This document shows positions 17,906-20,233 of a stretch of 64,000 nucleotides of DNA, in pieces. The DNA comes from Geovibrio ferrireducens (lineage in GTDB: Bacteria > Chrysiogenota > Deferribacteres > Deferribacterales > Geovibrionaceae). Made by a program: the position numbers and the translations under genes. Below the pieces are notes generated by a model. It did no database searches and was not told the origin of the DNA. It saw nothing but the letters and a program-made list of their open reading frames with translations. Numbering within the stretch: position 1 is the first letter of the stretch; each line of letters opens with the position of its first letter. The DNA is taken from positions 62,001 through 126,000 of the forward strand of contig NZ_JAJAPB010000001.1 in assembly GCF_026226615.1 (NCBI RefSeq), read 5' to 3'.

Positions 17906-17989
17906 GTCACTGCGAGGAAGGAGCAGCCTGACGAAGCAGTCTGTATGTATACTGAGAGACTGCTTCACCCTTTCAGGGTTCGCAGTGAC
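17906..17989. repeat. Nested palindromic repeat (second family, full copy)
   Basis: The outer arms GTCACTGCGA (17906-17915) and TCGCAGTGAC (17980-17989) and the inner arms GAAGCAGTCT (17933-17942) and AGACTGCTTC (17957-17966) both pair perfectly over ten bases. Related halves lie near 9,563 and 62,345. Confidence 0.7.
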
Positions 17990-17995
17990 GCAGTA

Positions 17996-18192
17996 ACTTC
18001 ACAATAAAAAATTCTCCCTCCATGGGAATTTTTTATACACGCTCGCGGCAGGATAAACCTGCCTTCGCCCGCACGGCGCGCCCCCATCTGACTTCACAAT
18101 AAAAAATTCTCCCTCCATGGGAATTTTTTATACACGCTCGCGGCAGGATGAACCTGCCTTCGCTCGCACGGCGCGCCCCCATCCTTGGGGGC
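17996..18192 (-). repeat. Tandem pair of three-hairpin repeats, copies E and F
   Basis: Two near-identical units start at 17996 and 18091 (period 95 bp). Each has an AT-rich hairpin 1 (AAAAAATT..AATTTTTT with TCCC/GGGA at the tip), ACACGCTCGC and hairpin 2 (GGCAGGATAAACCTGCC at 18047-18063; GGCAGGATGAACCTGCC at 18142-18158). Only copy F has a complete hairpin 3 (GCCCCCA/TTGGGGGC, 18175-18192). The one-base differences fall in the hairpin 2 loop. The pair sits just past the DAHP synthase stop. Confidence 0.8.
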
Positions 18193-18224: not shown

Positions 18225-19241
18225 TTACATGTATCGGCCGACGGCGAGGGCTACGGCCCTCATTTCGCCCATAAGCTGGATGAAGTGTTCAGGGCTGATG
18301 GTCTGGGCGGCATCGCTCCATGCCTTGTCAGGTTCGGGGTGAACCTCTATTATCACACCGTCCGCTCCGACTGCGATGGCTGATTTAGACAAAGCCGATA
18401 CGTACTGCCTGTGTCCGCCGGAGTGGCTGGGGTCGATGATTATCGGCAGGTGCGATTTATCCTTAACAACAGGAACGCAGCTTATATCAAGCGTGTTTCT
18501 TGTTGCTGTCTCAAACGTTCTGATACCCCTTTCGCAGAGGATGACTCTCTGGTTCCCCTCACTGAGGATGTACTCAGCGGCCATGAGGAACTCTTCTATA
18601 GTAGTGGACATGCCGCGTTTAAGCAGGACAGGCTTATCTGTCTGCCCAAGCATGGAAAGCAGCGCGAAGTTCTGTATATTGCGCGCGCCTACCTGAAACA
18701 TATCGGTGTATTTGTAAACAAGCTCAACGTTTCTGGGGTTTACCACTTCAGTGCATACGGGAAGGCCTGTCTCCTGCCTTGCGGTGGCGAGGTATTTCAG
18801 CCCCTCTTCACCGTGCCCCTGGAAAGCGTAGGGGCTTGTTCTGGGTTTAAATGCGCCGCCGCGGAGGATTTTTGCGCCCGCCGCCTTAACCATCTGAGCG
18901 GAACGAACTATCTGCTCCTCTGACTCCACAGAGCAGGGGCCTGCGATTATGGGAATTTCCCCTCCGCCGAATTTTACTCCGCATACGTCCACGATTGATG
19001 TTTCAGGCTTGACTTCTTTGCTGGCGAGTTTGTAGGGTTTACTGATGGGGACTATGTTGTCGACACCGGGCATTTCGGATATTACGCAGACACTGTCTTT
19101 CTTGACGTTAGTGCCCACAATGCCGATGACGTTGCGCTCCTTTCCGTAGATGACGTGGGGGCTGAAACCGAGTTCCTCCGCTCTTGCCACCACGTCTTTC
19201 AGGTGCTGTTCTTCCGCGTCCATTCTCATTACTACTATCAT
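18225..19241 (-). CDS. aroF: 3-deoxy-7-phosphoheptulonate synthase (DAHP synthase), type I with N-terminal regulatory domain
   Basis: 338 residues. Residues 1-70 are a ferredoxin/ACT-like domain, as in the Thermotoga-type enzyme. The TIM barrel follows with AGPCSVES, the GGAFKPRTSPYAFQG motif, LLKRGM, LCERGIRTFE and DPSHSGGHRQYV. It condenses phosphoenolpyruvate and erythrose 4-phosphate, the first step to aromatic amino acids. The start has GGAGGAAAGTT. A Phe/Tyr-rich leader peptide and a strong terminator precede it (19297-19448), so transcription attenuation by aromatic aminoacyl-tRNA supply is expected, in addition to any allosteric control by the N-terminal domain. Confidence 0.95.
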   Translation of the reverse strand: MIVVMRMDAEEQHLKDVVARAEELGFSPHVIYGKERNVIGIVGTNVKKDSVCVISEMPGVDNIVPISKPYKLASKEVKPETSIVDVCGVKFGGGEIPIIAGPCSVESEEQIVRSAQMVKAAGAKILRGGAFKPRTSPYAFQGHGEEGLKYLATARQETGLPVCTEVVNPRNVELVYKYTDMFQVGARNIQNFALLSMLGQTDKPVLLKRGMSTTIEEFLMAAEYILSEGNQRVILCERGIRTFETATRNTLDISCVPVVKDKSHLPIIIDPSHSGGHRQYVSALSKSAIAVGADGVIIEVHPEPDKAWSDAAQTISPEHFIQLMGEMRAVALAVGRYM

Positions 19242-19296: not shown

Positions 19297-19333
19297 AAAA
19301 AAAAGGCCGCGGGGCTTTCTGCTGCCCGCGGCC
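19297..19333 (-). terminator. Attenuator terminator upstream of DAHP synthase
   Basis: On the minus strand GGCCGCGGG (19325-19333) pairs with CCCGCGGCC (19305-19313) around an 11-base loop and is followed by eight Ts (19297-19304), a textbook intrinsic terminator. It lies between the leader peptide stop and the gene start at 19241. The loop contains GCAGC, which can pair with GCTGC just before the leader stop (about 19375-19379), a possible antiterminator. Confidence 0.85.
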
Positions 19334-19355
19334 TTGTTATTTTATACATTTCCTG

Positions 19356-19430
19356 TATTTTAACTACACCCTAAGCAGCCTCTTCAAAGAAGAAGTAAAA
19401 ATAAAAGCCGCTAAAAAAGTAGTTAAAATA
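19356..19430 (-). promoter_or_regulatory. Inverted repeat overlapping the leader peptide (pause / control hairpin)
   Basis: On the minus strand TATTTTAACTAC (plus 19419-19430), the codons for Tyr7-Phe8-Asn9-Tyr10, pairs over all 12 bases with GTAGTTAAAATA (19356-19367), just after the leader stop. A ribosome stalled on the aromatic codons would cover one arm. This is the arrangement expected of a 1:2 hairpin in amino-acid attenuators. Confidence 0.65.
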
Positions 19431-19448
19431 TGCCTTTACATTGTTCAT
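19371..19448 (-). CDS. Phe/Tyr-rich leader peptide of DAHP synthase (attenuator peptide)
   Basis: An ATG at 19448 opens a 25-codon frame ending in TAG at 19371-19373. It holds eight Phe and four Tyr codons; residues 15-21 read FYFYFFF. The stop is 38 bases before the terminator hairpin that guards the DAHP synthase gene on the same strand. By analogy with pheA and pheST leaders, its job is to stall the ribosome when Phe- or Tyr-tRNA is scarce and so allow read-through. The ribosome site is not obvious (GGGAG is 13 bases upstream), and with the nearest promoter the mRNA would be almost leaderless. Confidence 0.8.
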   Translation of the reverse strand: MNNVKAYFNYFFSGFYFYFFFEEAA

Positions 19449-19457
19449 GGTGGCTAT

Positions 19458-19486
19458 AATGCTCCCGTGATTCACATATGTCAATA
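19458..19486 (-). promoter_or_regulatory. Promoter candidate for the leader peptide and DAHP synthase
   Basis: On the minus strand TTGACA is followed after 17 bases by CATTAT. The predicted start of transcription is only a few bases before the leader ATG at 19448. A second, weaker pair (TTTTCA, 17 bases, CATATG) lies further upstream and would leave a normal 5' UTR containing GGGAG. Confidence 0.5.
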
Positions 19487-19516: not shown

Positions 19517-20233
19517 TCAGATCCAGATCTTCTCCACAGCGCCCTTAACGTTCCTCGTACCCAAGCCGTGGGCTATGCAGTCCGCCGCTGCTGCGAAATC
19601 CAGTATTTTTGACCCTGCCAGATGCCAGCCGGCTTCAATAAGGTGTACGGACATGGGAGTGGTCGGCCCCAGAATGATCCTGAATGCATCCTTACGGATA
19701 TGAGGCACATAGGTATGAAAGGTTTTATTGATGAATGTTACCCCCGTAATCATCACCACATCGCACTGCGGCATTATTTCCGCTGCGGCCTCCGGCTTGT
19801 ATGTTCCCTCTATGTCCTTAAGCTCAAAGATTTTAAGATCCGCCCTCGCCTCACCCATCATCTCAAGCATCGGACGGAACCAGCCGACCATGCCTACCTT
19901 TTTCCCCCTGAATGTCTCAGGACGGAGAAAATCCTCTCTCACTGAGGACTTGTTATTGAGTGCGGAGTTGATAATCGCAAGACCGATTCCCGCCTCGAAG
20001 CTGTTTGGTGAGCTGTAATACCTCTCCGCCGTTTCCAGTGCGTTTCTTCCGCGCAGATCCTCTTCCATGGTTCTGGCGGATTTGTGCATTGGCAGTTCAT
20101 TGCGGAAGGTGTAGGCCATGCCGCTTCCCGCATCGGTTTTGACTGCTGTATAGTCAAGCCCCAGAATATAATCCTGAATTATTGCATTTTCCAGAAGAGG
20201 GGCGGCCTCATCAAATATGTGGGAGTAAATCAT
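19517..20233 (-). CDS. DUF364 / DUF4213 protein (putative heavy-metal chelation family)
   Basis: A 238-residue cytoplasmic protein. The N-terminal part (LGLDYTAVKTDAGSGMAYT) matches DUF4213, and the C-terminal Rossmann-like part (GKKVGMVGWFRPML, DVVMITGVTFINKTF, ILGPTTPMSVHL) matches DUF364. The family is linked to metal or metallocofactor processes, but no reaction is established. Its first bases overlap the end of hisE by 4 nt, so it is translated with the his genes; this may be a simple transcript-sharing arrangement. It is the last gene before the DAHP synthase control region. Confidence 0.8.
   Translation of the reverse strand: MIYSHIFDEAAPLLENAIIQDYILGLDYTAVKTDAGSGMAYTFRNELPMHKSARTMEEDLRGRNALETAERYYSSPNSFEAGIGLAIINSALNNKSSVREDFLRPETFRGKKVGMVGWFRPMLEMMGEARADLKIFELKDIEGTYKPEAAAEIMPQCDVVMITGVTFINKTFHTYVPHIRKDAFRIILGPTTPMSVHLIEAGWHLAGSKILDFAAAADCIAHGLGTRNVKGAVEKIWI

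Follow-up and report, generated by a model that had tools for sequence, protein, structure and literature searches.

The DNA analysed here, referred to as the window, is a stretch of 64,000 nucleotides from the Geovibrio ferrireducens genome (RefSeq contig NZ_JAJAPB010000001.1; positions 62,001 to 126,000). It carries aroF, a gene for a type I DAHP synthase with a ferredoxin-like regulatory domain (Table 1); DAHP synthase catalyses the first step in making the aromatic amino acids. The product was assigned to Pfam domains PF00793 and PF18152, the latter being the ferredoxin-like regulatory domain, and to NCBIfam families PRK08673 and TIGR01361, and its nearest PDB entries were 4grs and 1rzm. 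The aroF start codon is preceded by a GGAGG Shine-Dalgarno sequence. The gene located 3' of aroF, a chemoreceptor gene as judged from its sequence, is on the plus strand. As this gene is convergent with aroF, the candidate attenuator described below appears to serve aroF alone. Between these two genes, a segment of ~95-100 bp is present in near-exact tandem repeat (17987-18184), with a short hairpin and a T-run on the minus strand. A paralogue, aroF2, was found elsewhere in the same genome, inside a pheA-hisC-aroF2-tyrA-aroA operon, and no leader was found before either aroF2 or pheA of that operon.

On the other side of aroF is a DUF364 gene (19517-20233), and between the two, on the strand of aroF, lies a short open reading frame with clustered codons for end products of the pathway. 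Phe occupies eight positions (residues 8, 11, 12, 15, 17, 19, 20 and 21) and Tyr four (residues 7, 10, 16 and 18), such that 12 of the 25 codons are for Phe or Tyr and residues 15-21 read FYFYFFF. The placement and composition of this frame had been reported in a first-pass annotation, and both were confirmed by the coordinates, the sequence and the list of open reading frames. When the 400-nt upstream region was shuffled 500 times with its dinucleotide composition preserved, the density of 10 aromatic residues in 12 codons was never reached. An intrinsic terminator is located between the frame and aroF, consisting of a GC-rich hairpin of about -21 kcal/mol with arms GGCCGCGGG and CCCGCGGCC, followed by the eight Ts that had also been pointed out in the first-pass annotation.

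Upstream of the frame, a sigma-70-like promoter was identified that, by standard promoter geometry, predicts transcription start at ~19450-19448, at or within ~2 nt of the leader AUG. A strict TTGACA-N17-TATAAT-AUG pattern had no matches in the genome and a looser pattern had three, thus leaderless starts from consensus promoters are not common in this genome.

Table 1. Location of aroF and of the predicted elements of its leader region in the window
Feature	Coordinates	Strand	Basis
aroF, type I DAHP synthase with ferredoxin-like regulatory domain; putative gene under control	18225..19241	-	Pfam, NCBIfam, PDB relatives
Intrinsic terminator: GC-rich hairpin (19333-19305) and T8 (19304-19297)	19297..19333	-	Sequence, fold, covariation
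Antiterminator 3' arm, the same as the terminator 5' arm (GGCCGCGGGCAGCA)	19320..19333	-	Duplex prediction, folding, covariation
Protector stem 3' arm (GTAGTTAAAATA), begins 3 nt past the stop	19356..19367	-	Sequence; L001 minimum-energy fold
Antiterminator 5' arm (GGCTGCTTAGGGTG): last two sense codons, stop, next 4 nt	19367..19380	-	Duplex prediction, compensatory changes in relatives
Predicted leader peptide gene (MNNVKAYFNYFFSGFYFYFFFEEAA), 25 codons and stop (ATG at 19448, stop at 19371)	19371..19448	-	Sequence, ORF list, conservation in 23/23 loci
Protector stem 5' arm (TATTTTAACTAC), 12 bp, codons 7-10 (Tyr-Phe-Asn-Tyr)	19419..19430	-	Sequence; in g1 and g3 only
Sigma-70-like promoter: -35 TTGACA (19484-19479), 17-nt spacer, -10 CATTAT (19461-19456)	19456..19484	-	Consensus scan, 10/12

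Conservation of the leader region

When 51 genomes of the phylum were searched, 26 orthologous aroF loci were found, which belong to families f1-f5 and f10. All 23 of the f1-f5 loci have a Phe/Tyr-rich frame with its end 79-234 nt upstream of aroF and, past this frame, a hairpin with a T-run. Pooled, these leaders comprise 715 residues that include 194 Phe, 62 Tyr and a single Trp (36% Phe+Tyr). Their aromatic density was reached in 0-0.4% of shuffles in 22 of the 23 loci and in 3% for the remaining one (L019). Between genera, the aromatic content and the AUG start are kept and little else is, with no invariant column among 18 sequences. The terminator stem covaries, with both sides changed at six of ten consensus pairs. 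DUF364 was detected beside the element in only three of the 26 loci. The genes on the upstream side vary from genome to genome, whereas the element remains at aroF, and it therefore belongs to aroF and not to the upstream gene.

The promoter spacing is also shared. In 18 of the 23 f1-f5 loci, the leader AUG is preceded by TTGAC[A/T] at a distance of exactly 35 or 36 nt, counted from the first T. This spacing would place the transcription start at the AUG or within ~2 nt of it, and it was found at only ~7 of the 3074 ATGs of these loci that are not leader starts (25 in total with the 18). The spacing makes it probable that translation of the leader peptide begins on a leaderless mRNA. The five exceptions (L017 and L020-L023) all belong to one genus, g4, and have the motif at 50-63 nt together with a Shine-Dalgarno sequence.

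A covariance model (R1) built from 22 of the f1-f5 sequences and run on the 51 genomes found one strong site per genome, located at aroF, in 24 of 24 f1-f5 genomes. G009 and the f8 genomes G049 and G050 were entirely unknown to the model, and the element was found in all three of them. The G009 leader ends with SYFFFFFYFFFFGGYRLR and has TTGACT 35 nt before its AUG. Those of G049 and G050 include NYFFGWY and NYFFYGWY, respectively, before a DAHP synthase gene, with TTGCAA 35 nt before the leader AUG in G049. The conservation in 23/23 orthologues, the covariation and the held-out genomes strongly support the earlier proposal that a Phe/Tyr leader and a terminator control aroF.

The f8 DAHP synthases (L151, L152 and L162, in G049 and G050) have a short N terminus from which, on reading of the sequence, the ferredoxin-like domain is apparently absent; their leaders are kept despite this apparent loss and now include a Trp codon. 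In the three genomes with f10 loci (L024-L026), FWQ(Y/F)YF frames with uncertain start codons precede the DAHP synthase gene, with apparently two terminators in a row, and a convincing antiterminator was seen only in L025. In the f7 genomes that were read (L027-L030 and L116), the best match was a paralogue of 50% identity, and no such aromatic leader was found at these paralogous loci. An aromatic leader was also absent from the close homologues L033 and L035 (~72-73% identity).

Predicted antiterminator pairing and ribosome dependence

In every f1-f5 relative, a duplex was predicted between the end of the leader (its last codons and stop) and the terminator's 5' arm, with an energy of -16.5 kcal/mol at the window locus. 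In a hand-anchored alignment, five adjacent pairs of this antiterminator hold in 20-23 of the 23 loci. Covariation was counted on the 22 distinct rows of this alignment. Antiterminator cells were paired in 85.8% of cases, compared with 79.8 +/- 1.6 in shuffles (1/500 as high), and the covariation score was 0.331 against 0.238 (2/500). Shifting the alignment to any slid register gave a lower score. Compensatory changes include C-G to U-A in g1/g3, G-C to A-U within g2 and A-U to U-A between g2/g4 and g5-g8. An arm-swap test at genus level, with one sequence per genus, is suggestive only (P ~0.09). As most terminators share a common GGCGG-like motif, arm-swap energies hardly discriminate between genera and the covariation count is the better test. 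The antiterminator of the window's genus is among the weaker ones, with seven core pairs of which two are G-U, and its value relative to shuffles (6/100) is not extreme.

The perfect 12-bp inverted repeat described in the first-pass annotation is present exactly and forms a stem in the minimum-energy fold of the full-length RNA of L001 with no ribosome. It was conserved only in the window's genus (g1) and the sister genus g3, and is not a conserved part of the switch. It was rejected as the antiterminator, having no overlap with the terminator and not being kept outside g1/g3. As it encloses the antiterminator arm, it would act as an optional protector stem. The alignment of the upstream region across the phylum that had been proposed with the first-pass annotation therefore upholds the Phe/Tyr richness and the covarying terminator, and confines the 12-bp stem to g1/g3. 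The accompanying statement that the full set of attenuation parts is present holds for the leader and the terminator, which are conserved and recur in the held-out genomes, but the antiterminator and the promoter had been missed.

Folding was modelled on the nascent RNA ahead of the ribosome footprint (A-site + 9 nt), before the 3' arm of the terminator is made. With a ribosome in the middle of the aromatic cluster, 9.9-19.8 antiterminator pairs were expected in all 23 f1-f5 loci, and with a ribosome at the stop codon the expected number was 0-2.1. With no ribosome, the antiterminator was nearly absent in L003, L017, L018, L020, L022 and L023 and present in other loci. Mutual exclusion of antiterminator and terminator, dependent on the position of the ribosome, is thus indicated by prediction and covariation. 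In the full-length RNA at equilibrium, the terminator was favoured in all states, even with a stalled ribosome. As the complete terminator is the more stable structure in every state, the ON state would have to be kinetic, with the antiterminator forming first. The choice of the ON state is likewise kinetic in classical attenuators.

Judging from the conserved sequence features and this folding model, the element very likely controls aroF by ribosome-mediated transcription attenuation, with Phe-tRNA and Tyr-tRNA as the sensed signals. Transcription would begin at or within ~2 nt of the leader AUG, and ribosomes would initiate directly on the 5' end of the RNA. When charged Phe- or Tyr-tRNA is scarce, the ribosome would stall in the cluster of aromatic codons, leaving the last codons of the leader and the stop available for pairing with the terminator's 5' arm, and the resulting antiterminator would permit transcription of aroF. 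With charged tRNAs available, a ribosome reaching the stop would cover the 5' arm of the antiterminator, the terminator would form and transcription would end before aroF. In the window's genus, in the absence of a ribosome, the stem between codons 7-10 and the bases past the stop could sequester the antiterminator arm. On this reading, the enzyme is very probably made only when ribosomes are short of Phe or Tyr.

As Phe codons are T-rich, AT-rich intergenic DNA can yield Phe-rich frames, and the hairpin could then be the terminator of the upstream DUF364 gene lying next to a frame that merely resembles a leader peptide. Such a coincidence is extremely improbable, as shuffled DNA of the same region rarely attains the observed aromatic density, the element is constant at aroF while its upstream neighbours change, and the frame, AUG, promoter spacing and antiterminator are concordant across relatives. 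Control that is independent of translation, with a riboswitch or an RNA-binding protein acting on the terminator and the aromatic frame encoding a small functional peptide, is very unlikely. Riboswitches also employ two-state terminator/antiterminator structures, though this resemblance is not direct support, and the window matched no T-box or known riboswitch model of Rfam at gathering thresholds, only a tRNA being found. A functional peptide is also difficult to reconcile with the conservation of little beyond aromatic content between genera. In every relative, a ribosome terminating on the leader would have the antiterminator arm, located at the stop codon or just before it, inside its footprint.

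The manner in which the leader is translated was considered separately. The attenuator could be the same with its leader read from a normal 5' UTR, the transcription start being further upstream and GGGAGC serving as the Shine-Dalgarno sequence. In the window's genus, a GGGAG/GAGGAG motif does precede the AUG by ~14 nt, and the five g4 leaders have a longer 5' UTR with a Shine-Dalgarno sequence. However, 14 nt is an excessive distance for a good Shine-Dalgarno sequence, the motif sits upstream of the -10 hexamer, and 15 of the 18 loci with the 35/36-nt spacing have no motif of this kind. A normal 5' UTR is thus unlikely, and an attenuator with a leaderless leader mRNA is the preferred reading.

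Aromatic leaders at other loci

Weaker matches to R1 were found at two further sites. In G024 (L153; C7:83900-85500), a match at 84421-84548 corresponds to a second leader, with Phe and Trp codons (MIENNVNTLFSGFFFSFFFCFWHSDCHE), whose AUG is preceded by TTGACA at 36 nt. The leader has a hairpin with a T-run and precedes a gene for a LivJ-like periplasmic binding protein (PF13458). This arrangement suggests an aromatic amino acid transporter under attenuation. In G032 (contig C25; L155/L161), an aromatic leader (MNLSWSAFFYFFYFSKFLRLRLASG) with a terminator and antiterminator of the same design precedes an operon that opens with an archaeal-type ADH synthase gene (TIGR01949, 365 bits against a cut-off of 299), followed by genes for an apparent AroB', a CM-prephenate dehydratase and AroA. 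As the G032 assembly is fragmented, this element is possibly a contamination.

Many Phycisphaerae DAHP synthase genes were also found to have leaders with Phe, Tyr and Trp codons, for example SFFFGYFWF (L042, L044, L053, L054, L059, L060, L067, L068, L074, L082 and several of L118-L148). The distance from TTGAC to the start codon is mostly 34-39 nt. The leaders that were examined for terminators had them, and in the ones that were folded, the same kind of antiterminator/terminator overlap was predicted. In the other phyla represented among the 80 named homologues (betaproteobacteria, cyanobacteria, Spirochaetes, Elusimicrobia and others), no convincing aromatic leader was found except in Phycisphaerae.

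There is about an even chance that attenuation by aromatic leaders, often leaderless, is a standing control of the first step of aromatic synthesis in several phyla that tracks the function and not the enzyme. In Deferribacterota, it would act on DAHP synthase with Phe/Tyr codons (and Trp in some families), on an ADH synthase operon in one genome and on a LivJ-like transporter in another, and in Phycisphaerae on DAHP synthase with Phe/Tyr/Trp codons. The composition of the leader (Phe/Tyr or Phe/Tyr/Trp) predicts which amino acids are sensed at the first aromatic step in each lineage. As the promoter-to-AUG spacing is conserved, the 18 leaderless loci and the five Shine-Dalgarno loci of one genus offer a natural comparison of versions of one attenuator.

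Comparison with known systems

Among the open-licence papers searched, none was found to describe attenuation in the phylum of the window, where the element is a probable switch that regulates entry into aromatic synthesis. The first-pass annotation had put forward such a leader as undescribed for a type I DAHP synthase with a Thermotoga-like regulatory domain in this phylum. It is new for the phylum and in its geometry but not in kind: the literature on Corynebacterium glutamicum describes a leader attenuator with Phe-Tyr-Phe, aroR, before the DAHP synthase gene aroF (Neshat et al. 2014 via PMC11802643; PMC4046766). In C. glutamicum, transcription of aroF is reported to rise on Phe limitation, and Tyr availability to be without effect (PMC4046766, PMC11802643). 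Compared by description alone, with no homology of the leaders claimed, in both systems a DAHP synthase gene is preceded by a leader that has Phe and Tyr codons, but they belong to different phyla, and the three aromatic codons described there compare with eight Phe and four Tyr codons here.

The pheA and pheST attenuators of Proteobacteria (Rfam RF01859, Phe_leader) similarly have a Phe-rich leader and an antiterminator/terminator switch, and RF01859 was the best Rfam match of the region. As the score of 31.2 bits (E 0.0015) is below the gathering score of 55, the element is not a member of Phe_leader. It differs in that aroF is the putative controlled gene, Tyr codons are added and there is no well-placed Shine-Dalgarno sequence.

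Leaderless leader peptides are known from C. glutamicum ilvB (PMC11857589) and Sinorhizobium meliloti trpL (PMC7298713), in which the transcription start coincides with the leader AUG or is one nucleotide away from it. The predicted start in the window resembles these, although it is deduced from promoter spacing, and the amino acids, genes and phyla are different. The idea itself is known. New are the phylum, the conserved leaderless geometry, and the similar elements in Phycisphaerae and ahead of a first-step enzyme of archaeal type.
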